A stretch of DNA of 64,000 bases from Helianthus annuus. Taxonomy: Eukaryota; Streptophyta; Magnoliopsida; Asterales; Asteraceae. The DNA lies in contig NC_035444.2 of the NCBI RefSeq assembly GCF_002127325.2, forward strand, positions 36,491,140-36,555,139. The letters are read 5' to 3'. Under the pieces are notes generated by a model. The model ran no database searches, was not told the DNA's origin, and saw only the letters and a program-made list of their open reading frames with translations. The position numbers and the translations under genes were made by a program. How positions within the stretch are numbered: position 1 is the stretch's first letter; each line of letters opens with the position of its first letter. Shown one piece after another: positions 904 through 38,246 of the stretch.

Positions 904-3176
904 ATGGCCACAAGATCAAGCATGAGCTCCTCCACTGTGTCTGCTACAACTTCTGCTACTACTGGTCCGGTGCTTCCACCACCTCCTCCAAGGATGGAAT
1001 CTTCTTCACAACCTCAGGATATTATCCCTACTCGAGTATTCAGGGATCTGCTCCGATTTTAGCTTCTAATGATGAAATTCTAACCTTATTTGGAAGTGTG
1101 CAGGAACAAATGAGGCAGCAACAGGAAACAAACCAAATGCTATTGAGGGAAATACAACTCCTGAAGTCCCGTTCGAGCAGATCTGCCGAGGATATCGTCA
1201 CTCCACTACAGCCCAGAACTTTGAACTTCAGTTCGGCGTGTACACTGCGGATAATAGGGGGAATATTGTGCCCAGCCTTCCTCAGAATCATACTCATGAA
1301 ATACCCTCCTCGGTCAGGATGTCAACCATGAGGAGCTCAGGATATGCTTCAGGATATGGGCAGAATCCTCAGACTGGTAACGTGTCTAATAATATAATAC
1401 TCTTACCACTAACAGTGTTGGATCTTTGCAGGATACAGCTATGACATCAGCATTATCTAGGGAGCTTCAGAAGCTAAAGGATAAGATATCCAGTGTACCT
1501 GGGGTGGTTCAGCCAATTCCTGAAGTATCCCAGGATAGCCACAGGATATCTCGGTTTGTGCATCCTATTTGTGATGCTAAAATCCCAAAAAGATTCCAAA
1601 CTCCCAACATGAAGCTTTATGATGGAACCACGGATCCTGAGGAGCATATTGCCCAGTATAGGGAACGGATGGAAATCAATCCTATCCCTCCGGAACTTAA
1701 GGAAGCATGCTTATGCAAGGGTTTCGGCTCTACCTTAACATGATCAGCCTTAAAATGGCTGTTAAACGTTCCTCCTCACTCAATTACTTCTTTTGCTCAT
1801 TTGGTTTACTTATTTAATAGTCAATTTTCTTGTAGCCGGAGTTTTGAGAAATTAACCAGTGATCCTTACAGGATAACTCAAGGACCTCAGGAATCCTTGA
1901 GGGACTATGTGAATAAGTTTAGCCGGGAATCCTTGGATATCCCGCACTTTGATGTCGCAACAGCTATGTAGGCTTTCAAGATGGGATTGCAGAAAGATTC
2001 CCAATTTTACCAGGATCTTGTGATGAATCCCTGCAGAAATCTGGATGAAGCTCGTAACAGGGCATTGAGATATATCAGGCTGGAGGATGATAAGAAAATG
2101 CAAGAGAGGATGAATGCATCCTCAACATATGAATCAACTAACAGGAAGTCAGAATCCTCGTACAAACCATACCGCTCTAAGCCATATGGTAGAAATGATA
2201 ACAAGAAAGTGAATGCTGTCGAAGACGAGGATCCTAAAGAATATCCTGAATTATCTGAATATTGCTTTTCTGTTAACATTCCTGAATTGATGTATGCCAT
2301 GCAGGGTTTAGGAGACAAGGCTAGGTGGCCTCGAAAGAATCAACAAAAAGCTGATTGGAAAGATAAGTCAAAATGGTGTGCCTTCCACGAAGATTTCGGA
2401 CATGTGACTGAGGATTGCATTGCCCTAAGGAAAGAAATAAGCTATCTTCTGAGCAAGGGGTATCCGAAAGATCTCTTTGGAAGAAAGAAGAATAAGGGTC
2501 AGGATACTGAGAAGGATCCTGAACGAGCAGCCTCACCTCCCGCAGATGCCAAGATAATCAACTTCATTTCGGGAGGATCCAACATTTGTGGGACTTCGTA
2601 TTCGGCGGCGAAGAGACATGCAAAAGCAGCTAAGGCTGAAAGGGGAGACAAACCTGTCAGGATGACTACCCTTACAACTGACAAAGTGATCACATTTGAT
2701 GCTGATGACAGGGATACTGTCCAGGATCCTCATCATGATGCTTTAGTAATAACATTATATGTGGCTAACCACTTTATACGCAGGATATTGGTTGATAATG
2801 GCAGCTCCGTCAATATAATCCAACTAGAGACTCTGAAGAGAATGAATGTATCTCCGATGGATATCACTTCAAAGTCCACCGTGCTTGTTGGGTTCAGTGG
2901 AGAGGCTAGGAACACAGTGGGAGAGATAAAGTTACCAGTATATGTTGAAGGAGTCAACTCGATACAACGTTTCTGTGTGATGGATTCTCTATCCTGCTAT
3001 AACATCATACTGGGAAGACCATGGATTCATGATATGAAGGCTATGCCATCAACATATCACCAATGCATCAAGATCCCTACCCTTGGGGAGTTGTCAAAGT
3101 CGATAGTGATCAGCAGGAGGCGAAAGAATGTTACTCATCCTCGATGAAATCCTCGACCAAGCCTAGTGCAACATAG
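904..3176 (+). pseudogene. Element A gag-protease, degenerate
   Basis: This is the remnant of the ORF for capsid, nucleocapsid and protease. It probably started at ATG 904, followed by a Ser/Thr/Pro-rich N-terminus. The capsid part (about 1441-2110) is recognisable by its match to the intact gag of C. The knuckle-like C-x2-H-x4-H-x4-C motif begins at 2377, and the aspartic protease motif DNGSS lies at 2794-2808. It is broken by frameshifts before 1440, a TGA at 1741, a TAG near 1969 and a 1-bp loss near 3083 that throws the end out of the pol frame. The terminal TAG at 3174 is in the pol frame, as in the other elements. Confidence 0.75.
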
Positions 3177-3182
3177 CAATTA
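3174..3182 (+). promoter_or_regulatory. Leaky-stop context TAG-CAA-TTA in element A
   Basis: TAG CAA TTA lies between the protease and RT coding regions and is in frame with the pol fragment that follows. The hexanucleotide after UAG fits the CAR-YYA readthrough consensus known from tobamoviruses. The downstream 8-bp hairpin seen in C, D and E is not recognisable here. Its presence in this divergent family suggests the stop context is conserved. Confidence 0.6.
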
Positions 3183-3469
3183 AAGATGCGGGCCCAGGAT
3201 ATCGTGGAGGATCCAGAGCAGGATGTGAAGAAAATTATCCTGGATCAGGATAATCCTGATATCTCGGTGCTCGTAGGAACCAATATCCCTCAGGATATTG
3301 AAGAGCAGTTAACTAACTTTTTGAAATGCAGGATGTCAACGTTTGCATGGAAGCATGAGGATATGACAGGTATATCCAAAGACATTATCACTCACAAGTG
3401 TGGAATTGACAGGTCTTTCAAGCCTGTCCAGCAAAAGAGAAGGAAGTTTGCTCCAGAACGAAACATAAT
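3177..3469 (+). pseudogene. Element A pol, N-terminal fragment
   Basis: It encodes the segment just before the RT palm, matching the start of pol in C and E, including the stretch T-F-A-W-K-H-E-D-M-T-G-I and the following K-R-R-K-F-A-P-E-R. It is cut off abruptly by the minus-strand LTR of element D at 3470. The rest of A's pol does not reappear on the other side of D, which re-enters A in its antisense gene, so it is deleted and not merely interrupted. Confidence 0.75.
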
Positions 3470-5027: not shown

Positions 5028-5756
5028 TGTTAGGGCTGGATTTTTATTATAGGTGATCCTTACACGTGATCCTAACCAGTGATCCTTGTTTCTTTGGCAG
5101 ACAGTGATCCTCAGCCGGACTTCAGGATCAGGATCATGGGACATTATAGGATCCTCATACTAACGATCATCTTCGCTTAATGCAATGTTATTTTTGCAGG
5201 AATATCTAGCAGGATACGCTCTAAGCATCATGATCAAGGGACGCGTCTTCACAATTATGGCAAGAGCTTAATCAGAGATAGACGTTGCACAGGATATGGA
5301 AACATGGCTTGATTCATGGGCAGCAATTTAGGCTAGATTGTCTTTTATTTCTAAAGGGGTAATGAGCTGATAATTAGTCCTTTTACCTAAAATAGGTCAC
5401 CTACACTTATATAAATACCACTCTCCATCATTTGGAAGAGGACACACGATATACAACGCAACTCTCACACACTTAGACACCAAAAGCAATAGTGATCCTT
5501 GTACTCAGCTCATTATCATCCGAAGTTGTAATCATTTTGTTCTTATATTGAAGTTTGGTGATCGGTAGTTGCCATCACCCGAGGTTTTTTATGCCGGAGA
5601 TCATATATTGATCAAGGGCTTTTTCCTCGTATAAATCATTGTGTCTTTGCATCTTTATCACAGAAGTGATCTTTTACTTTCATAATTAACCAAGCATCAT
5701 ACCCCGTTTACATAAAGTTTGGTTACATTATCCTTGTGTGATTTTTGACCAAAACA
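5028..5756 (+). repeat. 5' LTR of element C
   Basis: It starts TGTTAGGGC and ends ACCAAAACA. A TATA box (TATATAA) at 5409-5415 marks the likely promoter. In R/U5 there are two adjacent hairpins: GGTGAT/ATCACC (5557-5562, 5574-5579), and an outer CGAGG/CCTCG (5580-5584, 5625-5629) enclosing GATCA/TGATC (5599-5603, 5609-5613). Confidence 0.93.
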
Positions 5757-5759
5757 GTT

Positions 5760-5777
5760 TGGCGCCCACCGTGGGGC
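5760..5777 (+). other. Primer-binding site of element C
   Basis: TGGCGCCCACCGTGGGGC starts three bases after the LTR. The same 18-mer, with at most a base or two changed, sits at the corresponding place in D, E, F and G. The tRNA was not identified. Confidence 0.8.
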
Positions 5778-5833
5778 AATTGGTGCTTCATTCATAAGAA
5801 AATCTTTTGTTCGAAATCATTTCAAAGAGTTAC

Positions 5834-8404
5834 ATGGCTTCATCATTGAAGAACACGTCCACGGCGATGTCTGCAGTCACCTCATCACAGATCACTTTGC
5901 CTCCTCCACCGGCAGGATCTCAGAAAAATACTGAGAAAAGATCAACTCCCACTTTCTCTAAACCTCTATCTTCTTCTACTATGAATTCTTCTATTCCCAG
6001 TACTAGTGACGTATTTGCTTTAATTTTGCAGATGAAGGATCGTATGCAGCGGCAGGATGAGACTAATGACAGGATCCTCAGGGAAATTGGAGACCTCAAA
6101 AGACAAAAGAAAGCGGCAGAGGATCATTCCCCACTGATGCCCAAATCCTTGAGCTTCGATACTCCAATGATCACTTCCCAGCCATCAGGGATCCCCGACG
6201 TGCAAATCATAGGGGAGTCAAGAGGATCACATCTCAACTCGGCAGCAATGACTCAGACATCAGATTCACATTTTCAGCCAGTAGGGTCCTATCCTCAGTA
6301 CATGGGATCCTTCATGAAGTCAGGAGCCTGTCCGGGGGCACAACAGTTTCAAGGATCCTACTTTGTTCCAGGATCATTCCAGGGCCAAGGATCCTCCTTT
6401 GTTCCAGGATCATCCCAGGTTCAAGGATCCTCCTTCGTTCCCGGATCATCCCAGACACCAGGATCCTTCCAGATACCAGGATCCCTAAAAAGTTTGCAAA
6501 CAGGAAGTATAGATGTCCATCAAGGGGACTTCATTCCAATGCAGACCATTGCTTCCACTGGTCCCTCCGTTGTTCCAGGATCCCAGCAATATGGGTTCCC
6601 TAACTTGAACCCAATGGGAGGTAACACTTTAAATAATTATCCTACCACTAACCATGGATTCATGCCAGATACAGGTACCAATCATGCTATGGCCAGGGAG
6701 TTGCAGAAGCTAAAAGATATGATCTCAAGTGTTCCAGGGGTAGTCAAGCCTATCCCAGAGATTGCAGATGGAAGCCACAAGGTATCTCGCTTTGCACCAC
6801 CAATTTGTGATGCAGAGGTACCCAAAAGGTTCCATATCCCTACCATGAAGCTGTATGATGGCACAACGGATCCAGAGGAGCATATAGCACAATACAGGGA
6901 GAGGATGGAGATCAATCCTATCCCAGAAAAGTTGAAGGAAGCATGCCTATGTAAAGGATTTGGATCCACTCTTACTGGATCAGCTCTTAAGTGGCTGCTA
7001 AGTCTTCCCCCCTACTCTATTACTTCATTTGCTAATTTAGTTAATTTATTCAATAACCAATTCTCTTGTAGCAGAAAATTTGAAAAATTAACTAGTGATT
7101 TGTACAGGATAACTCAAAATCATAATGAATCATTAAGGGATTATATAACTAAATTTAGTAAAGAATCCTTGGACATTCCCAACTTGGATATGGCTACGGC
7201 TGTTGAAGCCTTCAAAATGGGACTGCTTAAGGATTCATTATTCTATGATGATCTTGTTATGACACCATGCAGGAATCTAGATGAAGTAAGAACTCGAGCA
7301 CTCAGGTTCATCCGGCTAGAGGATGACAAGAGGATCCAGGAGAGACAAGTAGGATCCTCGAAACAGGAGAAGCAAGGATCCTCCTTCAAGAACAACAAAT
7401 TCAAATCCTACCATAGAAATGAGAACAAGAATGTGCATGCTGTTGACCAAGAAGAGGATGATGAAGATTATCCTCCAATCTCAGAATATTGGTTTTCCGT
7501 TGATAATCATGAACTGATCCTTGCAATGCAGAATCTAGGTGAAAAAGCTAGATGGCCCAGGAAGAATGATAAACCATCCGGGACTAAAGACAAGTCAAAA
7601 TGGTGTGCATACCATGAGGATTTCGGGCATCTAACTGAAGATTGCATAGCCTTAAGAAAAGAAATTGGATACCTGCTAAGCAAGGGGCATCTAAAAGAAT
7701 TGTTGGGGAGAAAAAAGCAAAGGACCCAGGATCCTGAAAGGATCCCCGAAAAAGCTCCAGCACCTCCGGCAAATGCACAAGTGATCAACTTTATATCCGG
7801 AGGATCAGACATCTGTGGTACATCCTTCTCGGCGGCCAAAAGACATGCAAAAGAATCAAAAATGGACAATGGTGAAAGGCCTATTAGAACATCAAGTGTC
7901 TCAGAAGGGAAGATGATAACATTTGATGAGGATGATCGCATTAACATTCAGGATCCTCACCATGATAGTTTAGTTATCACTCTCTTTATCTCTAACCATT
8001 TTGTCCGCAGGATCCTTATTGATGGCGGGAGCTCAGTGAACATTATCCAGCTGGATGTCCTGAAGAAGATGGGAATCCCAGAATCAGACATCACACCAAG
8101 ATCCTCCGTGCTTGTAGGATTCAGTGGGGAAACGAAGAAAACTCTGGGGGACATCAAACTCCCAATCTACGTGGAAGGATTACATAATTACCAAAAATTT
8201 TGTGTTATTGACTGTTTATCTTGTTGCAACGTTATCCTTGGCAGGCCTTGGATACATGATATGAAAGCAGTCCCATCTACCTACCATCAATGTGTGAAGC
8301 TCCCTAGCCCATGGGGAATAATCAAGATCGATAGTGATCAGCAGGAGGCTAAGGATTGTTATACCTCATCTATGAAGCCAACCTCGAAGCCAAGGGAGCA
8401 ATAG
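5834..8404 (+). CDS. gag-pro: Gag-protease polyprotein of element C
   Basis: An open frame of 856 codons makes the particle proteins and the protease. I chose ATG 5834 (M-A-S-S-L-K-N) because the other copies share that start. An in-frame ATG at 5807 is also possible. The N-terminal third is rich in Pro, Ser and Gln and includes short G-S-S-F-V-P repeats (about residues 170-220). A capsid-like alpha-helical region spans roughly residues 290-520. The knuckle-like motif is C-x2-H-x4-H-x4-C at residues 591-604 (7604-7645), with His in place of the second Cys. The aspartic protease motif DGGSS is at residues 730-734 (8021-8035). It ends in TAG followed by CAA TTA, in frame with pol. It is uninterrupted, whereas E's copy has two nonsense codons. 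Confidence 0.9.
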   Translation: MASSLKNTSTAMSAVTSSQITLPPPPAGSQKNTEKRSTPTFSKPLSSSTMNSSIPSTSDVFALILQMKDRMQRQDETNDRILREIGDLKRQKKAAEDHSPLMPKSLSFDTPMITSQPSGIPDVQIIGESRGSHLNSAAMTQTSDSHFQPVGSYPQYMGSFMKSGACPGAQQFQGSYFVPGSFQGQGSSFVPGSSQVQGSSFVPGSSQTPGSFQIPGSLKSLQTGSIDVHQGDFIPMQTIASTGPSVVPGSQQYGFPNLNPMGGNTLNNYPTTNHGFMPDTGTNHAMARELQKLKDMISSVPGVVKPIPEIADGSHKVSRFAPPICDAEVPKRFHIPTMKLYDGTTDPEEHIAQYRERMEINPIPEKLKEACLCKGFGSTLTGSALKWLLSLPPYSITSFANLVNLFNNQFSCSRKFEKLTSDLYRITQNHNESLRDYITKFSKESLDIPNLDMATAVEAFKMGLLKDSLFYDDLVMTPCRNLDEVRTRALRFIRLEDDKRIQERQVGSSKQEKQGSSFKNNKFKSYHRNENKNVHAVDQEEDDEDYPPISEYWFSVDNHELILAMQNLGEKARWPRKNDKPSGTKDKSKWCAYHEDFGHLTEDCIALRKEIGYLLSKGHLKELLGRKKQRTQDPERIPEKAPAPPANAQVINFISGGSDICGTSFSAAKRHAKESKMDNGERPIRTSSVSEGKMITFDEDDRINIQDPHHDSLVITLFISNHFVRRILIDGGSSVNIIQLDVLKKMGIPESDITPRSSVLVGFSGETKKTLGDIKLPIYVEGLHNYQKFCVIDCLSCCNVILGRPWIHDMKAVPSTYHQCVKLPSPWGIIKIDSDQQEAKDCYTSSMKPTSKPREQ

Positions 8405-8438
8405 CAATTACAGTATCCTCCAAGGAATGTCTTGGAGG
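8402..8438 (+). promoter_or_regulatory. Candidate UAG readthrough cassette between gag-pro and pol (C)
   Basis: TAG (8402-8404) is followed by CAA TTA and then, 12 nt after the stop, by a perfect hairpin: CCTCCAAG (8417-8424), loop GAATGT, CTTGGAGG (8431-8438). The frame stays open for over 800 codons after the stop. UAG-CAA-UUA is the tobamovirus leaky-stop context, and a nearby 3' stem-loop is a known readthrough stimulator in other viruses. The cassette recurs in D and E, and the stop context also in A. Use of readthrough is inferred. Confidence 0.7.
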
Positions 8439-11400
8439 CAAGGGAACAAGATGTGGATGAAATCCTCTTGGATCCTAGTGATCCTGAATCAAAAATCTAT
8501 ATCGGATCAGGGATCCTTGGCAAGATGAAAGAAGACATGATATCCTTCCTCAAAAGAAGAAAATCTACCTTTGCTTGGAAACATGAAGATATGACAGGTA
8601 TATCTAAGGATATTATTACTCACAAACTTGGCATTGACAGGTCTATCAAACCAATCCATCAAAAAAGGAGGAAGTTTGCACCAGAAAGGAATGCCATTAT
8701 CCAAGAAGAAGTAGAGAGACTACTTCGAGCAGGTATGATCAGAGAGGTAAAGTATCCAAAATGGTTAGCCAATGTGGTTGTTGTCCAAAAGAAAAATGGA
8801 AAGTGGAGGGTATGTGTCGATTTCACTGATCTGAATAAGGCATGTCCCAAGGATCCTTTCCCATTACCCCACATTGACTCCATGGTGGATGCAACGGCGG
8901 GGCATGAACTGTTGACCTTTATGGATGCATCATCTGGATTCCAACAAATTCAGATGGAACCATCTGACCAAGAGGATACAGCCTTTATGACCCCAACCGG
9001 TTTATATTGTTATATTGCCATGCCTTTTGGACTAAGAAATGCAGGTGCAACATATCAAAGGCTGGTGAATATGATGTTCAAAGATCAAATTGGAAAAACT
9101 ATGGAAGTGTACATAGATGACATGGTGGTCAAGTCAAAGAAAGCTGAGGATCACCTAAGGGATTTGGAAGAAGCATTCGATATCCTTGATAGTTACAACA
9201 TGAAACTTAATCCTTCGAAATGCCATTTTGGTGTTAAGGCAGGAAAGTTCTTAGGATACATGGTAACCCAGAGGGGCATTGAAGCAAGCCCGGAACAAAT
9301 CAAAGCATTAGTAAATATTAAATCTCCTGCCAATGCCAAGGATGTTCAAAGACTGACAGGCAGGATAGCAGCTTTGAACAGGTTCATATCGAAATCCTCA
9401 GAAAAATGCAAAGAATTCTACGATATCCTAAGGAAGAATAAGAAGTTCGAATGGACTGAGAAGCATGAGAACGCTTTACAAGCCCTCAAAGAATATATGT
9501 CCTCAGCACCAGCATTAGCTAAACCGGAAAAAGGAGATGTGTTATCCTTATACCTGGCGGTATCCTCAACCGCTGTAAGTGCTGTCCTTGTCAAGGATCA
9601 TGAAGGTACACAATATCCTATCTACTATGTAAGTAAAAGTTTACTTGATGCCGAATCCAGGTACTCACACCTCGAAAAACTTATTCTTGCATTAATCATG
9701 GCATCCACTAAGTTAAGGCATTATTTTGAAACCCATACTATTGTTGTTAAAACTAATTTTCCAATTAAGAATGTCCTCAGGAAACCGGAGATGTCAGGGA
9801 GAATGGCTAAGTGGGCAGTGAAGCTTAGTGCCCATGATATAAGATATGAACCAAGAACAGCCATTAAATCACAAGCCTTAGCCGACTTTGTGGCTGATTT
9901 CAGTAGTGATCTACAAAAAGAAGCAGAATTGGAGGTCCAGCAGCTGGATGAAACCAAGGATCCTTGGATATTACACACTGACGGATCCTCAAATGTCAAG
10001 GGCACAGGGCTCGGGATCCTACTAAAATCGCCACAGGGGGACATAATACCCCACTCCATAGCCTGTGAGTTCCAAGCAACTAACAATGAGGCTGAGTATG
10101 AAGCCTTGATTGCTGGCTTGCAAATTGCTAAGGATATGGGGGTAAAATATCTTAAAGTATATGTAGACTCATTATTGATCACCAATCACTTTAACGGATC
10201 CTATGCTGTTAAAGGTGAAAAACTAACCAAATATTTAGAGATAGTCAAAAAATTGGCACTCTCTTTTGTTTCTTTCAGCTTAACACAGGTACCAAGGGAG
10301 GATAACACGGAAGCTGATGCATTGGCCAACTTAGGATCATCCTTGAAAATTCCAGAAGACATAAGTATCCCTATCATCCATATCCTGGCTCCTGCTATTG
10401 AAAATCAAGTGGCCATGGAAATAGAAGAGGATACTGCAATAATCCCTAGTGAAGAAGCTCAATCTTATTCAGGATCATGGGTCTCACCAATCATGAAATA
10501 CTTGCAAAACGGAGAGATTCCAATGGGAGAAAATCCTAGAGCTTTCCGGATCAAGGTATCTCAATTTACAATCTTAAATAATGTGCTATATAAACGATCC
10601 CTTGCAGGACCATACTTAAGATGTATTGAGGATCCTGAAATTGAAGAAGTGTTGAGAGACTTCCATGAAGGAGATTGTGGAAACCACACTGGGGGCAGGG
10701 CATTATTCTCAAGGATCCTTAGAACAGGATACTACTGGCCAACCATGAAAAGGGATGCTGTAGAATATGCTAGGAAATGTGATCCTTGTCAAAGACACAG
10801 CAATATCCTTCACCAACCACCTGAACTGCTACACCCCATACCATCCTCTTGGCCATTCATGAGATGGGGAATGGATATAGTTGGGCAAGCTTCCTAAAGC
10901 ACCTGGCGGAAAAGTATTTATGCTTGCCATGACTGACTATTTTTCTAAGTGGATAGAAGCTGAAGCCTTCGCCCAAGTCAGAGAAAAGGAAGTCATATCC
11001 TTCATCAAAAGAAATATTATAACTAGATTTGGCATTCCCTCTGAAATTGTATGTGATAATGGCTCCCAATTCATTGGAAGCAGAACCACTAACTTTTGTG
11101 ACAGTTGGGGAATCAAGATGATAACATCAACACCAGTTCATCCACAAGCCAATGGTCAAGCAGAATCATCCAACAAGATCATCATCAACAATCTGAAGAA
11201 GAAGCTAGGATCCAAGAAGGGGAAATGGGCAGAGGAGTTACCTTATGTGCTATGGGCTGATAGAACAACTCCCAAGAATGCCACTGGTCAAACACCTTTC
11301 TCTTTAGTATTTGGGGCAGAAGCAGTGATCCCAACAGAAATGGTGATCCCAACTGCTAGAACAAGTACTCGTGATCCTGAAGAAAATGCTACAATTCTAG

Positions 11401-11711
11401 CCCAGGATTTGGATACTATTGAAGAAATCAGGGATCTAGCTAGGATAAGGATGGCAAGCTACCAACAAAGAATGGCTGGTGCCTACAACAAAAATGTTAG
11501 GATAAGGAAGTTCCAAGTCGGAGATATGGTGTTGAGAAAAACATTCCAAAACACTATTAATCCTGCTGACGGAAAGTTAGCACCAAAATGGGAAGGCCCT
11601 TACTTAATTGAAGCCGAAGCAGGAAAGGGGGCATACAGGTTGCTAACCATGGAAGGAAACTTATTGCCAAGAGCCTGGAATGCTGTTCACTTAAAGAAAT
11701 ATTTCCTGTGA
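8405..11711 (+). pseudogene. pol: Element C pol (RT-RNase H-integrase) with one frameshift
   Basis: Translation would enter from the readthrough stop. The reverse transcriptase has Y-I-D-D at 9110-9121. RNase H follows (D-G-S-S near 9978). Integrase has its HHCC zinc domain (about 10660-10800) and a D-D-35-E triad: Asp 10935, Asp 11055, Glu 11163. The C-terminus contains a G-P-Y-L motif, as in the GPY/F module. Compared with E there is one extra T at about 10880, which shifts the frame between the zinc domain and the catalytic core, so an active integrase cannot be made from this copy. The rest is open to the stop at 11711. Confidence 0.88.
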
Positions 11712-11959
11712 ACATGATCCTTCATGCATGTGATCCTTACATTGAAGCATCCTTGAAGGGTCCCGGTGATATCAGTGATCCTTACTCTGGTAATATCCTT
11801 ATCCTAGAAACTATTGCATTTTCTTACTTTTTACCTAAGGATAAGGATCATGTATCCTTCATCCTCTACTCACAAAACATTTGAGTTATGATAGTTCAGG
11901 TATCCTCAGCATATCGTCAAAAGATCTTCAAAAGCACCACAGATCCTTGGGTCCAACCC
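11712..11959. other. Non-coding spacer after pol in element C
   Basis: No open frame is supported here. The stretch is rich in GATCC/GGATC words like the rest of the element. A matching spacer follows pol in E (about 32051-32292). Confidence 0.5.
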
Positions 11960-13121: not shown

Positions 13122-14745
13122 CTACACCTTCGCTGCTTCATCACCACCAGCATCTCCACCTTGATCCTTCTCAGCATCACCACCTTCCAGCATGGGGATC
13201 TCCTCAGCCTCATCCTCGTCCTCCAGGTCCGCCAGCCTTGCCTTCCAACCTTCAACGTCCCACGAGCTTTTGTCAAAGGTAGGATCCTGAGCCTCCTCAG
13301 CCATCTGAAGTTGTATCTTGTACATAGCAATTGCCGCGGAGACCTTGGCATCTTGGGTGATCTCCTGCTTCTCGTTATCCATATCGATCAACCTCTGAGC
13401 AGCCTCATCCTTCGTGGCCCGGAGTTCCTTCTCAAGATCTGCTATCTTGAGATCCTTAAGCACGCCCATTTGTTGAAGGTCGGCAATCTGGCTCCCTTGA
13501 TCCTCAACATGGCCAAGATAGGTCTCGATCTCGGCAAGTTTCTGCAAAGAGGGAAACAAGGTAAGTCCAGAACCGGATGATCCTCAAAGAAACAGGATAC
13601 ACAAACAGGATATCCGAAACGGATAACCAACAGGGGCAGTGATCCTTACCTCATTCACGAAGTCAAGGAATTGCTGACGGAGGAGGGGAAATCCTTGGAG
13701 ATCTTCAGAGGTTTTCCTCTTTTTTCCCTTGCCCCGGATAGGTGCCTTGGGGGCTGAGACCGAAGGACTGGCAGCAGGAGCCTTCTTCTTTGAAGACTTG
13801 ACGTTGGTGAGATCATCTATCCCAAATTTAGAAGCAGATTTGACAGACCTGGCAGACTTTCCAGCACCTACACAATCAAAAACAAGATAAGTTGCTTTAT
13901 TAATCAAACAATCCTACATTTAATTTATTTTCTATAAGGGTACTTACTTGACATAGTGGCAGATGCAGAGGATACTTCTTGAGAATCTTGGACGGTGACT
14001 TGGAAACTTCTGATTTCAGGATTAAGCTTTTTAAAAGCTAGGACTCTCTCTTTTGCAGCAGGGCTTAATTTCAGATGAGCAATGGATATAGCTGCACAAG
14101 AGATAAAAAGAGATATTAGTGATCCTCATTATATGAGACAGGGCTGATAGTGATCCTTCGAGGATCCTCTATCCTACCATGAGTGGCACATTCCTTGGGC
14201 AGATCCTTCCCTTCTGGGATGGAATCCCTCCTAACAAAGAAAAAGCGACGCTTCCAGTTTGTATCGTTCTTAGTAACCTTGAAGACAGGGTGATCCTCCC
14301 CGGCTTTCCGTTTCAACAAATACCGGTGAGAACCAAAGGTGGTGAGATCGTAAAACTCAGCTAACTCCGCCATCCCCAGATCAATCCCTTCCTGCTCGAT
14401 GATCCTCTCGAAGGTATACAGAACCCTCCAGATCATCGGCATAGCTTGGATATATGAGATGCCGGTTAAGGAAAAGAAAGATTGGGTGAACAATGGAAAA
14501 GGATATGAATACCCTATGGTAAATGGAGTAGCAGGAAAAGCCACCCAGGTATCCGAAACAGAGTCACTCAGAGCGGTAGGTGTGAAGGACTTGAAAACAG
14601 CATTCGCCGGAAAGCAATGACGAATTCTGTCTATGTGAACATCAGTAAAGCAACACCTCTCCGTAGGAGAATCCTTGATAATCCCCTGGCTTTTTAAGGG
14701 ACTATCCTTCTTGGAATCCTTGTGTGGAGAATTCCGGAGCAACAT
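13122..14745 (-). CDS. Antisense spliced gene of element C (extra ORF), complete
   Basis: Four exons can be laid out with GT-AG introns that keep one frame: 14745-14178, 14091-13948, 13867-13650 and 13541-13122, giving 449 residues. Introns are 86, 80 and 108 bp. The donors at 13947 (GTAAGT) and 13649 (GTAAGG) and the acceptors (GTGCAG, GTGTAG, TTGCAG) are canonical. Exon 1 holds a globular domain conserved in all copies, related to the plant 'putative gypsy type transposon' family. Exon 3 is Lys/Ser/Pro-rich (possible nuclear signal K-G-K-K-R-K). Exon 4 is a coiled coil with an acidic C-terminus. It lies opposite to gag-pol, between pol and the 3' LTR, with its own TATA promoter. Extra antisense ORFs are known in the Tat lineage, but their role is not established. 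The exon model is inferred from sequence. Confidence 0.75.
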
Positions 14746-15047
14746 GTTTGTGACGAGACGGAAACAGAGTAGAAGCAGAAAACAGAGCAAAGAGAAAAGA
14801 AAGAGAGAAAGAGAAGAATACCTGATCAATCTTCGGTGCAGAATATAAAGGGAGTGTATCTTGAATTTAAATACAAACTGATCCTCACCCTATCTCCTAT
14901 TTATAATCATGATCTGCAGGGATTGTCACATCTATGACGTAATGATCACAACGGCTAGTCCATGTGTAACGGCTAGTTATTCGGAGTCGCCTGTTGGAGA
15001 TAAGATCGAAACAAAATATAACTCGTCAATCTACAATAAACTCCTTA
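14746..15047 (-). promoter_or_regulatory. Promoter of C's antisense gene
   Basis: The TATA box (TATAAATA on the minus strand, 14898-14905) is about 155 bp before the ATG. An ACGTCA-type box (14935-14942) lies about 30 bp further upstream. AACGG/CCGTT cores follow up to the PPT. The layout matches D, E and F. Confidence 0.6.
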
Positions 15048-15049
15048 TA

Positions 15050-15062
15050 TTTTGGGGGCAAT
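15050..15062 (+). other. Polypurine tract of element C
   Basis: The run ATTTTGGGGGCAAT directly abuts the 3' LTR at 15063, equivalent to the PPTs of D, E and F. Confidence 0.75.
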
Positions 15063-15789
15063 TTTTAGGGCTGGATTTTTATTATAGGTGATCCTTACAC
15101 GTGATCCTAACCAGTGATCCTTGTTTCTTTGGCAGACAGTGATCCTCAGCCGGACTTCAGGATCAGGATCATGGGACATTATAGGATCCTCATACTAACG
15201 ATCATCTTCACTTAATGCAATGTTATTTTTGCAGGAATATCTAGCAGGATACGCTCTAAGCATCATGATCAAGGGACGCGTCTTCACAATTATGGCAAGA
15301 GCTTAATCGGAGATAGACGTTGCACAGGATATGGAAACATGGCTTGATTCATGGGCAGCAATTTAGGCTAGATTGTCTTTTATTTCTAAAGGGGTAATGA
15401 GCTGATAATTAGTCCTTTTACCTAAAATAGGTCACCTACACTTGTATAAATACCACTCTCCATCATTTGGAAGGGGACACACGATATACAACGCAACTCT
15501 CACACACTTAGACATTCGAAACAATAGTGATCCTTGTACTCAGCTCATTATCATCCGAAGTTGTAATCATTTTGCTCTTATATTGAAGTTTGGTGATCGG
15601 TAGTTGCCATCACCCGAGGTTTTTTATGCCGGAGATCATATGTTGATCAAGGGCTTTTTCCTCGTATAAATCGTTGTGTCTTTGCATCTTTATCACAAAG
15701 TGATCCTTTACTTTCATAATTAACCAAGCATCATACCCGTTTACATAAAGTTTGGTTACATTATCCTTGTGTGATTTTTGACCAAAACA
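15063..15789 (+). repeat. 3' LTR of element C
   Basis: It matches 5028-5756 with roughly 15 differences. Its first two bases are TT instead of TG, a G-to-T change in the terminal dinucleotide that integrase recognises. It ends ACCAAAACA and is followed directly by the interior of F's LTR. Confidence 0.9.
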
Positions 15790-20960: not shown

Positions 20961-22494
20961 GAGTTCAACATAATATCCTTGACGTATTGCTCTCTTGCCT
21001 CCATGATGTCTTGCTCCTTGGAGGCTGGCTTCTTTGAAGAAGTGTAATAGTTTTTTGCCTCCTGCTGATCATATCTCATAGAGTTGGGACCTTGACACGT
21101 TGAAGATATGTTGAGAGGGATTGCCTTCATATCGTGTATCCATGGCCTGCCAAAGATAACGTTACAGCAAGATAAGCAATCAATAACATAAAAAAAATTT
21201 TTTAACATAATTTACTCCCTCTATGTAGATAGGAAGTTTGGTGTCCCCCAATGTAATCTTTGTCTCTCCAAGGATAGATGATCTTTGGACAATATCGGAT
21301 TCAAGGATGTCCATTCTATCGAGGACATCCAACTGGATTATGTTCACTGAGCTCCTCCCATCAATGAGAATCCTGCGAACAAAATGGTTAGATATAAATA
21401 ATGTAATAACTACACCGTCGTGATGAGTATCCTGAATGTCCGCACAGTTATCCTCATCATATGATATCACTTTCTCCTGGGTAAGGATGGAGGTCCGAAC
21501 AGGTTTGCCCCCATTCTCCATCTTTGTTTCCTTTGCACGTCTCTTAGCTGCTGAGAACCTCCGGAGATGAAGTGGATGATTCAAGCATCGGATAGTGGAG
21601 GAGGAGCTTTTTCAGGAATTTTCTCAGGATACTTGATCCTTGACTTTTTCCTTCCAAGCAATTCCTTCAAGTATCCTTTGCTCTAAAGATAACTTATCTC
21701 CTTCCTAAATGCTATGCACTCATCTATGAGATGACCAGAATACCCATGGTAAGCACACCATTTCGATTCGTCTTTGGTGGCAGACGCTTTGTCATTCTTC
21801 CTTGGCCACCTAACCTTGTCACCTAAACTCTGGAAGGAGGAACCTTGAACCTGCGAGGATCCTTGAGCCTGAGAGGATCCTTGAACCTGCGAGGATCCTT
21901 GAGCCTGAGAGGATCCTTGAACCTGCGAGGATCCTTGAACCTGAGAGGATCCTTGAACCTGAGAGGATCCTTGAACCTGAGAGGATCCTTGAACCTGAGA
22001 GGATCCTTGAACCTGCGAGGATCCTTGAACCTGAGAGGATCCTTGAACTTGAGAGGATCCTTGAACCTGCGAGGATCCTCGAATCTGAGACATTGCCGAT
22101 GATCCAGAACGTATTCCTGTTGATCCACCCTGGTATTGGACATGTGGTGCTGCAAAGTTCTTAGGAAGTTATGACCGGAGTGTCGAAATTCAGCGACCAC
22201 GACATCAAAGGGGAGCGATCCTCTGCTGATTTTATCAATTTCGCGAAGGATCCTGCCATTAGTTTTGACCTGCTACATGTGATCCTTCATCTGCACAATC
22301 AAAGCATAAAAATTGTTGTTAGTAAGTGTAGAGGAAGAAACAACAGTTGGTTTTGTGAAAACGGGGGTTGTCTTTTTCGGAGAATTCTCAGCATCTTTCT
22401 GGAATGCAATGGGGAGATGATGCAAAGGCGGAATGCCCTGTGAAAAAGTGACTGCCGACATAGAGCTTGGAGTGTTCTTCGCTGGAGAAGCCAT
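20961..22494 (-). pseudogene. gag-pro: Element F gag-protease, capsid region deleted
   Basis: It starts at ATG 22494 (M-A-S-P-A-K-N), then a Ser/Gln-rich region that passes into a 13-copy repeat. From there it runs directly into G-D-K-V-R-W-P-R-K, just upstream of the knuckle-like C-x2-H motif. The capsid segment between them is deleted. The protease motif survives as D-G-R-S-S (Gly to Arg change) near 21360. Several frameshifts interrupt the frame. Confidence 0.75.
21845..22080 (-). repeat. 18-bp coding minisatellite in F gag
   Basis: About 13 tandem 18-bp units encode G-S-S-Q-V-Q (or Q-A-Q). Each contains a GGATCC hexamer. In C, D, E and G the same place holds a 36-bp unit coding G-S-S-F-V-P-G-S-S-Q-V-Q in low copy. 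F thus amplified half of that unit. Both strands are open through the array, producing spurious ORFs. Confidence 0.9.
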
Positions 22495-24435: not shown

Positions 24436-24438
24436 AAC

Positions 24439-25157: not shown

Positions 25158-27678
25158 GCAAGCATGAACACTTTTCCACCAGGTGCCTTAGGGAGCTTGC
25201 CAACTATATCCATCCCCCATCTCATAAATGGCCAAGAGGAGGATATAGGATGTAGAAATTCAGTCGGCTGATGAAGGATATTGCTGTGTCTTTGACAAGG
25301 ATCACACTTCTTAGCATACTCCACAGCATCCCTTTTCATAGTTGGCCAGTAGTATCCTGTCCTTAAGATCCTTGAGAACAATGCCCTGCCCCCAGTGTGG
25401 TTTCCACAATCTCCTTCATGGAAGTCTTTTAAAACTTCTTGAACTTCAGGATCCTCGATACATCTTAAATATGGTCCTGCAAGAGATCGCTTATACAACA
25501 TATTATTTAAGATTGTGAATTGAGATACCTTAATTCTGAAAGCCCTAGGGTTTTCTCCCATAGGAATCTCTCCGTGTTGTAAGTATCTCATGATTGGTGA
25601 GATCCATGATCCTGAACAAGATTGAGTATCCTCACTAGGGATCATTGCAGAATCCTCTTCTATTTCCATGGCCACTTGATTTTCAATAGCAGGAGTCAGG
25701 ATATGGATGATGGGGATACTTATATCCACTGGGATCTTCAAAGATGATCCTAGATTAGCCAATGCATTAGCTTCTGTATTTTCTTCCCTTGGTACCTGTG
25801 TCAAACTAAAGAAAACAAAGGAGAGTGCCAATTCTTTGACTATCTCTAAATATTTAGTTAGTTTTTCACCTTTAACAGCATAGGATCCATTAAAGTGATT
25901 AGTGATTAACAATGAATCCACGTATACCTCATGATACCTGATCCCCATATGCTTAGCAATTTGCAAACCAGCAATTAAGGCTTCATATTCAGCCTCATTG
26001 TTAGTGGCTTGGAACTCACAAGCTATGGAGTGGGGTATTATGTCCCCCTGTGGCGATTTTAGTAGTATACCAAGCCCCGTGCCTTTGACATTTGAGGATC
26101 CATCAGTATGTAGTATCCAAGGATCCTTGGTCTCCTCCAGCTGCTGGACTTCCAATTCAGCTTCCTTTTGTAAATCACTACTGAAATCAGCCACAAAGTC
26201 TGCTAATGCTTGGGATTTGATGGCTGTTCTAGGCTCATATCTTATATCATAGGCACTAAGCTTTACTGCCCATTTAGCCATCCTTCCGGACATTTCTGGT
26301 TTCCTGAGGACATTCTTAATTGGAAAATTAGTTCTAACAACAATAACATGAGTTTCAAAATAATGTCTTAACTTAGTAGATGCCATAATTAATGCAAGAA
26401 TAAGTTTTTCAAGGTGTGAATACCTGGATTCAGCATCAAGTAAACTCTTACTTACATAATAGACAGGATATTGTGTACCTTCATGATCCTTAACAAGGAC
26501 TGCACTTACTGCTTTTGAGGATACCGCAAGATATAAGGATAACACATCTCCTTTTTCTGGTTTCATCAACGCTGGAGCTGAGGATAGGTATTCTTAAGGG
26601 CTTGTAAAGCACTCTCATGCTTCTCAGTCCACTCAAATTTCTTGTTCTTCCTTAGGATATCATAGAAATCTTTACACTTCTCTGAGGATTTGGATATAAA
26701 TCTGTTTAAAGCTGCTATCCTGCCTGTTAGCCTTTGCACATCCTTAGCGTTGGCAGGAGACTTGATATTCACCAATGCTTTGATTTGTTCCGGGCTTGCT
26801 TCAATGCCCCTCTTGGTTACCATATATCCTAAGAATTTACCTGCTTTAACACCAAAGTGACATTTTGAAGGATTAAGCTTCATGTTATATCTGTCAAGGA
26901 TATCAAATGCTTCCTCCAAGTCTCTTAGGTGATCCTCAGCTTTTATGGATTTCACCACCATATCATCTATGTACACTTCCATAGTCTGTCCAATCTGATC
27001 CTTGAACATCATATTCACCAGCCTTTGATATGTTACACCTGCATTCCTTAATCCAAACGGCATAGCAATATAACAATATAAACCGGTTGGGGTCATAAAA
27101 GTCGTATCTTCTTGGTCAGATGGTTCCATCTGAATTTGTTGGAATCCAGATGAAGCATCCATAAAAGTTAACAGTTCATGACCCGCCGTTGCATCCACCA
27201 TGGAGTCAATGTGGGGTAATGGGAAAGGATCCTTGGGACATGCCTTATTTAAATCAGTGAAATCGACACATACCCTCCACTTTCCATTTTTCTTTTGAAC
27301 AACAACCACATTGGCCAGCCGTCTTGGATACTTTACTTCTCTAATCATACCTGCTCGTAGCAATCTCTCTACCTCTTCCTAGATAATGGCATTTCTTTCT
27401 GGTGCAAACTTCCTCCTTTTTTGATGGATTGGTTTAAATGACCTGTCAATGCCAAGTTTATGAGTGATAATATCCTTAGATATACCTGTCATATCCTCAT
27501 GTTTCCATGCAAAGGTAGACTTTCTTCTTTTGAGGAAGGATACAAGGTCTTCTTTCATCTTGCCAAGGATCCCTGACCCGATATAGATTTTGGATTCAGG
27601 ATCATCAGGATCCATGAGAATTTCGACCACATCCTGCTCTCTTGCCTCCAAGACATCCCTTGGAGGATACTTTAATTG
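25158..27678 (-). pseudogene. pol: Element D pol, truncated in integrase
   Basis: RT (Y-I-D-D at about 26970), RNase H (D-G-S-S near 26100) and the integrase zinc domain (25430-25290) are recognisable. It ends at [11 protein letters not shown], where the LTR of G begins, so the integrase catalytic core is absent. It also carries a nonsense codon (CAA to TAG, 27379-27381) shortly before the palm domain and a 1-bp loss near 26580. It is not functional. Confidence 0.85.
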
Positions 27679-27681
27679 CTA
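27645..27681 (-). promoter_or_regulatory. Candidate UAG readthrough cassette in element D
   Basis: TAG (27679-27681) is followed by CAA TTA (27678-27673). After a 12-nt spacer comes the 8-bp stem CCTCCAAG/CTTGGAGG (27666-27659 and 27652-27645). The loop is GGATGT instead of GAATGT. The stem is unchanged although the loop and the base after CAATTA differ from C. Confidence 0.68.
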
Positions 27682-28235: not shown

Positions 28236-28964
28236 TGTTTTGGTCAAAAATCACACAAGGATAATGCAACCAAACTTTATGTAAACGGGGTATGATGCTT
28301 GGTTAATTATGAAAGTAAAGGATCACTTCTGTGATAAAGATGCAAAGACACAACGATTTATACGAGGAAAAAGCCCTTGATCAATATATGATCTCCGGCA
28401 TAAAAAACCTCGGGTGATGGCAACTACCGATCACCAAACTTCAATATAAGAACAAAATGATTACAACTTCGGATGATAATGAGCTAAGTACAAGGATCAC
28501 TATTGTTTCGAGTGTCTAAGTGTGTGAGAGTTGCGGTGTATGTCGTGTGTCCTCTTCCAAATGATGGAGAGTGGTATTTATACAAGTGTAGGTGACCTAT
28601 TTTAGGTAAAAGGACTAATTATCAGCTCATTACCCCTTTAGAAATAAAAGACAATCTAGCCTAAATTGCTGCCCATGAATCAAGCGATGTTTCCATATCC
28701 TGTGCAACGTCTATCTCCGATTAAGCTCTTGCCATAATTATGAAGACGCGTCCCTTGATCATGATGCCTAGAGCGTATCCTGCTAGATGTTCCTGCAAAA
28801 CAATATGGTATTAAGTGGAAGTGGCCGTTAGTATGAGGATCACCATAATGTCCCATGATCCTGATCCTGAAGTCCTGCTGAGGATCACTGTCTGCCAAAG
28901 AAACAAGGATCACTGGTTAGGATCACGTATAAGGATCACCTATAATGAAAATCCAGCCCTAACA
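28236..28964 (-). repeat. 3' LTR of element E
   Basis: 729 bp, almost identical to 38247-38975. The PPT complement (28965-28980) follows immediately. Confidence 0.95.
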
Positions 28965-29280
28965 ATTGCCCCCAAAATATAAGGAGTTTATTGTAAATAA
29001 ACGAGTTATATTTTGCTCTGATCTTATCTTCAACGGATTATTCGGATAACTAGCCGTTATAAGCGGACTAGCCGTTGTGATCATTACGTCACAGATGTGA
29101 CAATCCCTGCAGATCATGATTATAAATAGGAGATAAGGTGAGGATCAGTTTGTATTTAAATTCAAGATACACTCCCTTTATATTCTGCACCGAAGATTGA
29201 TCAGGTATTCTTCTCCTTCTCTCTTTCTTTTCTCTTTGCTCTGTTTTCTGCTTCTACTCTGTTTCCGTCTCGTTACAAAC
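28965..29280 (+). promoter_or_regulatory. PPT and antisense-gene promoter of element E
   Basis: The PPT complement is at 28965-28980. Then come AACGG/CCGTT cores (29033-29076), an ACGTCA-type box TTACGTCA (29084-29091) and the TATA box TATAAATA (29121-29128). The ATG is at 29281, about 150 bp after TATA. Confidence 0.65.
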
Positions 29281-30889
29281 ATGTTGCTCCGGAATTCTCC
29301 ACACAAGGATTCCAAGAAGGATAGTCCCTTAAAAAGCCAGGGGATTATCAAGGATTCTCCTACGGAGAGGTGTTGCTTCACTGATGTTCACATAGACAGA
29401 ATTCGTCATTGCTTTCCGGCGAATGCTGTTTTCAAGTCCTTCACACCTACCGCTCTGAGTGACTCTGTTTCGGATACCTGGGTGGCTTTTCCTGCTACTC
29501 CATTTACCATAGGGTATTCATATCCTTTTCCATTGTTCACCCAATCTTTCTTTTCCTTAACCGGCATCTCATATATCCAAGCTATGCCGATGATTTGGAG
29601 GGTTCTGTATACCTTCGAGAGGATCATCGAGCAGGAAGGGATTGATCTGGGGATGGCGGAGTTAGCTGAGTTTTACGATCTCACCACCTTTGGTTCTCAC
29701 CGGTATTTGTTGAAACGGAAAGCCGGGGAGGATCACCCTGTCTTCAAGGTTACTAAGAACGATACAAACTGGAAGCGTCGCTTTTTCTTTGTTAGGAGGG
29801 ATTCCATCCCAGATGGGAAGGATCTGCCCAAGGAATGGGCCACTCATGGTAGGATAGAGGATCCTCGAAGGATCACTATCAGCCCTGTCCCATATAATGA
29901 GGATCACTAATATCTCTTTTTATCTCTTGTGCAGCTATATCCATCGCTCATCTGAAATTAAGCCCTGCTGCAAAAGAGAGAGTCCTAGCTTTTAAAAAGC
30001 TTAATCCTGAAATCAGAAGTTTCCAAGTCACCGTCCAAGATTCTCAAGAAGTATCCTCTGCATCTGCCACTATGTCAAGTAAGTATCCTTATAGAAAATA
30101 AGTTAAATGTAGGATTGTTTGATTAATAAAGCAGCTTATCTTGTTTTTGATTGTGTAGGTGCTGGAAAGTCTGCCAGGTCTGTCAAGTCTGCTTCTAAAT
30201 TTGGGATAGATGATCTCACCAACGTCAAGCCTTCGAGGAAGAAGGCTCCTGCTGCCAGTCCTTCGGCTTCAGCCCCCAAGGCACCTATCCGGGGCAAGGG
30301 AAAAAAGAGGAAAACCTCTGAAGATCTCCAAGGATTTCCCCTCCTCCGTCAGCAATTCCTTGACTACGTGAATGAGGTAAGGATCACTGCCCCTGTTGGT
30401 TATCCGTTTCGAATATCCTGTTTCTTTGAGGATCATCCGGTTCTGAACTTACCTTAATTCCCTCTTTGCAGAAACTTGCCGAGATCGAGACCTATCTTGG
30501 CCATGTTGAGGATCAAGAGAGCCAGATTGCCGACCTTCAACAAATGGGCGTGCTTAAGGATCTCAAGATAGCAGATCTTGAGAAGGAACTCCGGGCCATG
30601 AAGGATGAGGCTGCTCAGAGGTTGATCGATATGGATAGAGAAGCAGGAGATCACCCAAGACGCCAAGGTCTCCGCGGCAATTGCTATGTACAAGATACAA
30701 CTTCAGATGGCTGAGGAGGCTCAGGATCCTACCTTTGACAAAAGCTCGTGGGACGTTGAAGGTTGGAAGGCAAGGCTGGCGGACCTGGAGGACGAGGATG
30801 AGGCTGAGGAGATCCCCATGCTGGAAGGCGGTGATGCTGAGAAGGATCAAGGTGGCGATGCTGGTGGTGATGAAGCAGCGAAGGTGTAG
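29281..30889 (+). pseudogene. Antisense spliced gene of element E, frameshifted in last exon
   Basis: Exons 29281-29848, 29935-30078, 30159-30376 and 30472-30889 with introns of 86, 80 and 95 bp and canonical GT-AG ends. The reading frame joins correctly over the first three junctions. In exon 4 a 2-bp deletion near 30636 (between D-M-D and E-K-Q in the other copies) shifts the frame and ends the protein early. The original frame can still be followed to a TAG at 30887-30889. Without splicing, exon 1 would read on for only about 20 more codons to a TAA at 29908. Confidence 0.75.
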
Positions 30890-31668
30890 GCTGCATGATT
30901 GGGCGATGATGGATATTTCGAGACTAGGCCGGAGCCCAATTTTTTAGGATTGGTAGTGGTTTTTTGTGGTAGTGGTGTTTGTGAACAATTATGGTCTGTA
31001 ATCTCTGAACAATAGATTTTAGGGTAAAGGATCCTGGATCCTTTGAACAATAGGTAGGATTACAAAAAGGTGGAGGGATCCTCTGTTTGGGGGATGAAGC
31101 CTTTGTGATCCTGCCGCTTTTACTTTCCTGCAGACCGCATAGACAATGGACACCCTTTGCCAACCCATGTGGACGGGCCACGTTTTGCTGGTAGAAATGT
31201 GGGTTGGCAATTTTGACAACTTTTTGAAAGGGTTAATGATCCTTTTGTTTAATAATATTACTTTAACTTTTCTGGCTTATCTCGTGTTGGTATCCTTATC
31301 TTCTTGTTTCTTAGTTGTTTTTGTAGTATATTTGTTTAAAGTGGCAAGAGTTGAAAATATATTTAATAAAGTTAGGATATGATCCTAGATCAAATATCCT
31401 GATATTGAAAATATTCAAAGTATTTTAGTTCAAGGATCATAGGTTTGGTTGTCAAAGTATAAGGGTCGGTTAGGATAATGAGTATAATCAAAATAGTCAA
31501 GGATCATACCTGAGGATCCAAGTTAGGATCCTAACCTTCAATCGGGATAACCATAAGTAAAACTTTTAATGGATATTAAGGATTAAGGATCCTTAATTGT
31601 TTAACTTCGAAAACCTGAAAAAACGGAACATAACTTGGGACTAAGCCAATGTAAGAGATAAATTAGCA
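30890..31668. other. Non-coding spacer of element E with conserved hairpin
   Basis: No gene is supported. It contains the 11-bp inverted repeat TTGCCAACCCA/TGGGTTGGCAA (31157-31167 and 31200-31210), identical to that of C. Confidence 0.6.
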
Positions 31669-31782
31669 ACTGGGGACATGCCCAAAGGATAACCGAGAAT
31701 GATCCCGGAGGATCACTGGGGACAAGCCCAAAGGATAACTGGGGATGATCCCGGAGGATCACTGGGGACAAGCCCAAAGGAT
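31669..31782. repeat. Minisatellite in the 3' spacer of element E
   Basis: Two unit types alternate: AACTGGGGACAAGCCCAAAGG and a variant with GGATGATCCCGGAGGATC. It is the counterpart of 12221-12338 in C, with a different order of units. Confidence 0.75.
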
Positions 31783-31784
31783 CG

Positions 31785-32045
31785 TATGTAAACTGGAGTA
31801 TGGCCCTTACTGGCGACTATCCAAACTTAGTGACATGAAAATGTCAAAACCTTAGCTAACGTGAAAACGTTAGAAACCTTAGGAACGGATGTATGGTACG
31901 TCTACCATTATACGGAGGATCCTGGGTATAGCCAGTACGATGAGGTTGTCAGCCCCGGAAGTGGGTACTGGTCCCAAAGACGTGAACTATATCAGGATCA
32001 TCGTGCGCTGCTGGCGGAAACTGGGGATAATCCCAAGGATAACTG
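31785..32045 (+). other. Conserved non-coding block of element E
   Basis: The same block as in C (11960-12220) and F (18651-18910). It lies between the minisatellite and the end of pol. No shared ORF. Confidence 0.6.
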
Positions 32046-32292
32046 GGGTTGGACCCAAGGATCTGCGGTGCTTTTGAAGATCTTTGACGATATGCTGAAG
32101 ATACCTGAACTATCATAACTCAAATGTTTCGTGAGTAGAGGATGAAGGATACATGATCCTTATCCTTAGGTAAAAAGTAAGAAAATACAATAGTTTCTAG
32201 GATAAGCATATTACCAGAGTAAGGATCACTGATATCACCGGGATCCTTTAAGGATACTTCAATGTAAGGATCACGTGCATGGAGGATCATGT
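32046..32292. other. Spacer between conserved block and pol of E
   Basis: No gene is supported. Rich in GGATC/GATCC words; homologous to 11712-11959 of C. Confidence 0.45.
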
Positions 32293-35598
<3,306 letters not shown>

Positions 35599-38169: not shown

Positions 38170-38225
38170 ATAACTCTTTGAAATGATTTCGAACAAAAGA
38201 TTTTCTTATGAATGAAGCACCAATT

Positions 38226-38243
38226 GGCCCACGGTGGGCGCCA
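38226..38243 (-). other. Primer-binding site of element E
   Basis: The reverse complement of TGGCGCCCACCGTGGGCC, one base different from C, three bases from the LTR. Confidence 0.8.
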
Positions 38244-38246
38244 AAC

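Follow-up and report, generated by a model that had tools for sequence, protein, structure and literature searches.

We analysed a 64,000-nucleotide stretch of the sunflower genome (Helianthus annuus, contig NC_035444.2, positions 36,491,140 to 36,555,139; hereafter the window), part of which is filled by nested Ty3/gypsy elements, as seen by self-comparison. In one of these, a long terminal repeat (LTR) retrotransposon of the Retand type that we call copy C (5028-15789, + strand), the UAG codon between gag-pro and pol appears to be a leaky stop that is read through by the type I mechanism known from tobamoviruses. We put the probability of this reading at roughly 0.8. The window also holds two close copies, D and E, and two older fragments, the diverged copy A (1396-3473, +) and the decayed copy B (22521-19160, -). 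Over 5.7 kb, identity is 98% between C and E; between C and D it is about 90%.

An earlier reading made from the letters of the window (the sequence-only reading) stated that gag-pro and pol of C share one frame with a single TAG between them, and the open reading frames (ORFs) and the sequence itself agree. The last codons of gag-pro in C, D and E are CAA TAG, and pol continues in that frame with CAA TTA. Correctly predicted, too, was CAATTA, a hexanucleotide of the CAR-YYA type, directly after the TAG in C, D, E and A. The combined motif TAGCAATTA stands at 8402-8410 (C, +), 27681-27673 (D, -), 35601-35593 (E, -) and 3174-3182 (A, +), and CAATTA is thus kept at four of the five junctions of the window, with B as the exception. 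In the whole window TAGCAATTA is found five times against 0.69 expected, four times at gag-pro/pol junctions including that of A. The fifth occurrence (53743-53735, -) lies inside a long TAA/ATT microsatellite and is due to chance. Of the 7466 stop triplets that the two strands of the window contain, junctions included, only 18 (0.24%) have CARYYA directly after them. None of the five other in-frame stops of A (two), D (one) and E (two) has CARYYA next to it (B not included), and these five look like decay.

The junction also resembles a site with measured activity. Over the 15 letters of CAATAGCAATTACAG, C and E are identical to the tobacco mosaic virus (TMV) test site printed in PMC2754532; D shares 12 letters in a row and A shares 10. 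For the TMV site, 32% readthrough in planta is reported, with UAG decoded as tyrosine, and beet necrotic yellow vein virus (BNYVV), which has CAA-UYA too, gives 11% (PMC2754532). With G in place of the C next to the stop on its 3' side, readthrough was abolished (PMC2754532).

Downstream of the stop, the sequence-only reading described a perfect 8-bp stem with a 6-nt loop, 12 nt past the stop of C, and it was located there, starting at +13. The same arrangement was reported for D and E and is present in both, on the minus strand in each case. Loop changes over an unchanged stem had been claimed as well; the stem is indeed the same and the loop of D differs (GGATGT versus GAATGT), but the loop of E equals that of C. 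The pattern CCTCCAAG-6 nt-CTTGGAGG has three matches in the window versus 0.02 expected, with up to two mismatches permitted. Of 100,000 random synonymous recodings of the 24 residues, 204 contain a perfect 8-bp hairpin that starts at +8 to +20. Over the 10,765 nt of C there are four perfect hairpins of at least 8 bp (loop 3-10), and only the one at the junction has at least five G/C per arm. When 36 nt are folded, the junctions of C, D and E give z-scores of -2.6, -3.0 and -2.5, so that the compact hairpin alone stands out. All stem pairs are the same in C and D, so that there is no covariation signal to read, and the stems of C, D and E are not independent because the copies are so alike. 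For a pseudoknot, complements to the hairpin loop longer than 4 nt are absent in the approximately 260 nt downstream, and Rfam gave no match in the whole window at gathering thresholds.

Copy A, about 71% identical to C and E at the nucleotide level, has a different structure. It lacks the compact stem and instead forms its own longer, interrupted hairpin (-51.9 kcal/mol, z -5.3), whose stability is equalled in none of 200 shuffles and in none of 2000 synonymous recodings (mean -24.1). Among 163 windows along A, the junction is one of the two strongest structure peaks, the other being at 1436-1484. Short-range folding of A (36 and 61 nt) is not significant; the signal lies in the longer element. 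The 8-bp stem, presented by the sequence-only reading as a conserved part of the signal, is shared by the close copies C, D and E only. A second strongly structured region lies in the gag of A (1436-1600, +; z down to -6.2).

The stop context of A has fared differently. Over pol residues 1-99, the codon is kept at 32 of the 58 residues shared by A and C, and among the first 45 in-frame pol hexamers just two are identical, CAATTA being one of them. An intact TAG-CAATTA within such a fast-changing pol N-terminus is suggestive but falls short of proof.

To place the junction among relatives, we used protein searches. The gag-pro search, with candidates limited to at most 1519 amino acids (aa), gave 244 matches, of which 120 were listed and examined; many of these are gene models. 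Identity to H. annuus proteins reaches 99%. Among the listed homologues, 71 end 45-66 aa past the GRPWIH motif (a few, e.g. P0086, P0092 and P0094, with slightly different ends), 21 run on, 22 lack the motif and 6 end early. The stopped proteins among these matches come from Helianthus, Tagetes, Deinandra, Erigeron, Centaurea, Cuscuta and Spinacia, and further from Chenopodium, Beta, Silene, Saponaria, Salvia, Humulus and Raphanus. Thirteen listed proteins are from sources without organism names, and of these five stop there, three run on, two are short and three have no motif.

The sharpest evidence among relatives comes from two proteins in which the frame is continuous. In P0168 (Smallanthus) the junction reads ...TRQA-Y-QLKKEARDVLE, with tyrosine in the stop column, and in P0162 (Microthlaspi, Brassicaceae) it reads ...KSHQL-Y-QLESKPS, where Raphanus P0120 stops in the same column (...KTHVL*). 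Such Tyr-Gln-Leu sense variants were seen in 2 of the 244 proteins, from two plant families. They bear on readthrough because CAR-YYA gives Gln-Leu when YYA is a leucine codon, and tyrosine in the stop column is of note because it is one base from TAG and because plants insert tyrosine at the TMV stop. A third search, with pol residues 1-75, gave 13 matches and no additional Tyr-Gln-Leu junction.

If the TAG were instead a mutation of no benefit, neutral or harmful, that spread by amplification of a single source copy, with CARYYA coincidental and pol supplied by other elements, one could account for the closeness of C, D and E and for the missing stop in B and in many relatives. However, the stop and hexamer are also present in the diverged copy A, proteins stop at an equal position in Tagetes, Deinandra, Erigeron and more distant eudicots, the context is rare after stops in general, and Gln-Leu is kept in the sense variants of two plant families. 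We consider this explanation unlikely.

From the anatomy of the junction, its departure from chance, the stop position common to many homologues and the two Tyr-Gln-Leu variants, all of which are observed, we infer that readthrough occurs, at what rate, with which amino acid and with what help from the hairpin. Most ribosomes would halt at the UAG and yield Gag-Pro (capsid, nucleocapsid and protease). A minority would insert an amino acid, probably tyrosine; we propose that the UAG is sometimes decoded because CAA upstream and CAAUUA downstream weaken termination. In ribosomes past the UAG, translation would go on to Gag-Pro-Pol, which adds reverse transcriptase (RT), RNase H and integrase, and the RNA hairpin that begins 11-13 nt downstream probably increases the readthrough rate. 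Since protease is encoded before the stop, only RT, RNase H and integrase would be rationed. From the anatomy, the ratio of Gag-Pro to Gag-Pro-Pol is predicted to be very roughly 2:1 to 10:1. The cassette is real and well formed and probably functional, and the protein matches hint that it occurs more widely than the sequence-only reading could see. That readthrough sets the Gag:Pol ratio, as had been proposed, is thus the best-supported reading on account of the shared stop position and the Tyr-Gln-Leu variants; the hairpin part of that proposal is less well supported. To our knowledge, how pol is produced in plant LTR retrotransposons with two in-frame ORFs is mostly open.

Alternatively, termination could be genuine, with pol translated on its own after reinitiation or internal entry past the stop. 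The first in-frame ATG of pol is codon 41 in C, 22 in D, 63 in E and 4 in A, so the earlier statement that pol has no ATG near its start applies best to C and E and fails for A, where an in-frame ATG 9 nt past the stop codon would suit such a restart. This ATG is not conserved in the other copies, however, and a start at codon 63 in E would cost the pol N-terminus. In addition, the pol N-terminal peptide is still joined to gag-pro in the continuous P0162 and P0168. Separate initiation is the least probable of the explanations considered here, and we give it very little weight.

A further alternative is splicing, by which the TAG would be stripped from some transcripts and pol made from spliced RNA. 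There is precedent in the sister lineage Ogre, as the gap between gag-prot and pol is spliced out in the elements of pea and Medicago (PMC6317226), and gene models from Tagetes (P0023, P0165) and Centaurea join across the stop. In the Tagetes models, ...PWGV is joined straight to QLKK, 54 residues from the FAW motif, which we take to be a predicted intron whose 3' end is the stop, apparently with the AG of TAG as acceptor. P0056, 98.5% identical to the stopped P0046 over 684 aa, joins gag-pro to pol with the stop region missing in frame; the join is a deletion, a splice product or an assembly effect. Splicing or deletion thus occurs in relatives (Ogre; P0056). At the sunflower junctions, though, the gag-pro and pol ORFs abut, while the Ogre gap averages 274 bp (PMC6317226). 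Splice sites were scored with weight matrices. Within 250 nt of the stops of C, D and E the best donor scores 0.4 (window 99th percentile 4.2), and the region up to 900 nt upstream (560 nt in D) holds no better donor than one of 2.8, at a distance of about 800 nt. The TAG scored as an acceptor gives -4.7 to -7.6. A good candidate acceptor lies at +156 in A, with a score of 6.5 where the 99th percentile of the window is 5.3, but there is no donor to pair with it. Furthermore, CAATTA would be superfluous for splicing, and the Tagetes joins are software predictions. We therefore regard splicing as very unlikely at these junctions. Models such as P0023 and P0165 illustrate how leaky stops may mislead gene annotation.

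Several observations weigh against readthrough as set out above. At the junction of B the stop and hexamer were lost via an in-frame gap, which leaves locally one frame, like that of one-ORF relatives; CCTCCA and TGGAGG are both near the gap, and whether the 5' arm of the stem is lost depends on gap placement. P0056 lost its stop in frame as well. Folding of 117 nt at the junctions of C, D and E is ordinary (z -1.3 to -1.8). The figure of 71 in 120 is length-biased, in that the limit of 1519 aa shuts out full one-ORF gag-pol proteins. In the pol search, where 120 of 5858 matches were listed (up to 1926 aa), 44 of those listed have protease and RT motifs together in one protein; another 64 carry RT without protease, 3 carry protease without RT, and 9 carry none of the two. 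P0168, a gene model, is apparently rearranged just upstream; Daucus-type proteins and Centaurea P0146 and P0163 are continuous with no Gln-Leu at the site; and outside the window CARYYA is deduced from Gln-Leu only. Pol of C is broken by a frameshift near 10885, and gag of E has two extra nonsense codons. Finally, gag and pol are in one ORF in 37 of the clusters (59%) surveyed in PMC11963269 and in two ORFs in the others, and the one-ORF share is 29% for monocot and 83% for eudicot clusters. The two-ORF form is real, yet it is a minority among eudicot clusters.

It is possible, if doubtful, that eudicot Retand elements had leaky TAG-CAR-YYA as an ancestral switch before Asteraceae and Brassicaceae separated, with lineage-specific 3' hairpins and repeated loss. 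The hairpins would be the compact ones of C, D and E and the extended one of A, and losses by stop-to-tyrosine change or in-frame deletion would have produced the many one-ORF relatives. We hold this proposal tentatively in view of the length bias in the list of homologues and of the reported 83% share of one-ORF elements among eudicot clusters. If true, the switch would be a retrotransposon counterpart of that of tobamoviruses, reached independently.

Comparison with known systems places the junction closest to type I. As in tobamoviruses (UAG-CAR-YYA), UAG is followed by CAAUUA; unlike there, the signal lies in an integrated LTR retrotransposon, where it separates gag-pro from pol, and has a hairpin added, whereas for TMV a short local context is said to suffice (PMC3542737). 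Structures from about 8 nt past the stop are common in readthrough, with extended stem-loops at type II sites (PMC3542737). The benyvirus coat-protein extension combines UAG-CAA-UUA with a compact stem-loop, the latter given as unpublished data (PMC3542737, Table 5); it extends a coat protein, not a polymerase, and the likeness is to the tabulated description. Elements of the Ogre group, also in the Tat clade, share the boundary after protease and before RT but have the intervening region spliced out, while the sunflower frame is continuous but for one codon. In murine leukemia virus the protease is encoded after the stop; in the sunflower copies the protease motif precedes the stop, and the base after the stop is a cytosine. 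This gammaretrovirus (type III) is similar in having an in-frame UAG between gag and pol and a downstream RNA structure, and differs in needing a pseudoknot after an 8-nt spacer (PMC3542737), of which none was seen in the sunflower copies. What follows the UAG there is CAATTACA (C, E) or CAATTAAA (D), not a G- or purine-rich octanucleotide.

The cassette was said to be undescribed for Tat-lineage elements. No combination of TAG-CARYYA with a hairpin in an LTR retrotransposon of plants was found in the titles and abstract openings covered, with most subscription papers outside, and the words readthrough and read-through are absent from PMC11963269. However, rice RIRE2 (gypsy-type; Ohtsubo 1999), listed under Retand in PMC6317226, is cited in PMC2754532 for readthrough candidates among gypsy-type retrotransposons; it is a monocot element. 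With RIRE2 and the benyviruses as partial precedents, novelty is lower than claimed. In 2009 the experimentally verified plant cases were viral (PMC2754532), a 2022 paper describes readthrough in Arabidopsis mRNAs, and a 2003 survey, according to PMC5009743, includes plant elements with pol in the +1 frame. If our reading is true, one of the best-studied leaky stops has been reached independently by plant retrotransposons. It yields a cassette open to direct testing, suggests how much Gag-Pro is likely to be made relative to Pol, and offers an explanation for gene models that are split or mis-joined.

Assignment of C to Retand is based on several features. Pol of E, which is homologous, has an extra RNase H (RVT_3, 526-643) between RT_RNaseH (to 475) and the integrase zinc domain (from 744), and such an additional RNase H between RNase H and integrase is a trait of Retand, in the Tat clade, that is shared with Ogre (PMC6317226). 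The region between pol and the 3' LTR of C is 3351 bp long and holds an antisense ORF (14889-14116), as expected for Retand. The LTRs of C (729 and 727 bp), its internal region (9306 bp) and this 3' region are close in size to those of clusters Helianthus annuus 4/5 in PMC11963269 (LTR 720/719, internal 9,310/9,313, pol-3'LTR 3,327/3,343), and from these close sizes we provisionally place C with them. Both are potentially recently active Retand clusters, with 121 and 71 potentially recently active copies (PMC11963269). An antisense TRP28 domain is reported in 97% of Retand clusters, with Helianthus annuus 4 and 5 as the sole exceptions (PMC11963269); in C, likewise, Pfam shows no domain in the antisense ORF at E 0.01, and TRP28 does not define these two clusters. 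Gag-pro of C has a Retrotrans_gag domain by Pfam and, by eye, a zinc-knuckle-like motif and a LIDGGSS motif that we take as protease. Coordinates are collected in the table.

Table. Features of the gag-pro/pol junctions and of the elements that carry them (window coordinates).
Feature	Position	Strand	Remarks
TAG of C, candidate leaky stop	8402..8404	+	codon before is CAA
CAATTA (CARYYA) of C	8405..8410	+	
Compact hairpin of C	8417..8438	+	8 Watson-Crick pairs and a possible G-U pair, from +13
TAG of D	27679..27681	-	codon before is CAA
CAATTA of D	27673..27678	-	
Compact hairpin of D	27645..27666	-	stem as in C, one loop change
TAG of E	35599..35601	-	codon before is CAA
CAATTA of E	35593..35598	-	
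Compact hairpin of E	35565..35586	-	identical to C
TAG of diverged copy A	3174..3176	+	codon before is ACA, not CAA
CAATTA of A	3177..3182	+	
Extended stem-loop of A	3187..3275	+	33 pairs, interrupted, +11 to +99 from stop
Junction of decayed copy B	20985..21030	-	stop and hexamer gone, frame continuous over gap
5' LTR of C	5028..5756	+	self-comparison, ends from sequence
Candidate primer-binding site of C	5760..5777	+	just 3' of LTR, begins TGGCGCCC; from sequence
gag-pro ORF of C	5834..8404	+	856 aa from ATG, ends at TAG
pol of C	8405..10888	+	RT, RNase H, second RNase H, integrase start; domains via homologous E pol
Remainder of C pol (integrase end)	10881..11711	+	other frame
Antisense ORF of C, between pol and 3' LTR	14116..14889	-	257 aa; near copy in E 29137-29910 (+)
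3' LTR of C	15063..15789	+	self-comparison, ends from sequence
Element E, inserted in D	28236..38975	-	LTRs 38247-38975 and 28236-28964; 5-bp target duplication CCAAG
pol ORF of E	32293..35598	-	1101 aa, open over whole length

The candidate primer-binding site of C is likely to serve as such. Between 3467 and 41885 there are nested insertions: E sits in the gag of D, and more LTR copies are present besides. A further LTR element adjoins the broken end of D pol (LTR 24436-25157), and pol of A is cut by an LTR at 3467.

Searches of other sequence collections gave few relatives. In viral contigs there was no pattern match to C pol, and with alignment A1 as query 14 stretches fitted the pattern, none of which was confirmed. 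Phages gave two records with a short RNase H stretch only, and plasmids nine records, every one below 60% identity. Among 18 loci in genome contigs, only L001 (2474-4648 of the Streptomyces clavifer assembly contig BMWJ01000029.1) was plant-like by eye, and the junction was read in this locus alone. It is a plant-like Ty3/gypsy gag-pol ORF, 39% identical, in a single continuous frame with the stop absent, and is probably contamination. Likewise, P0161 carries the label Escherichia coli yet shares 60% identity with sunflower Retand pol, and this record probably reflects plant contamination.

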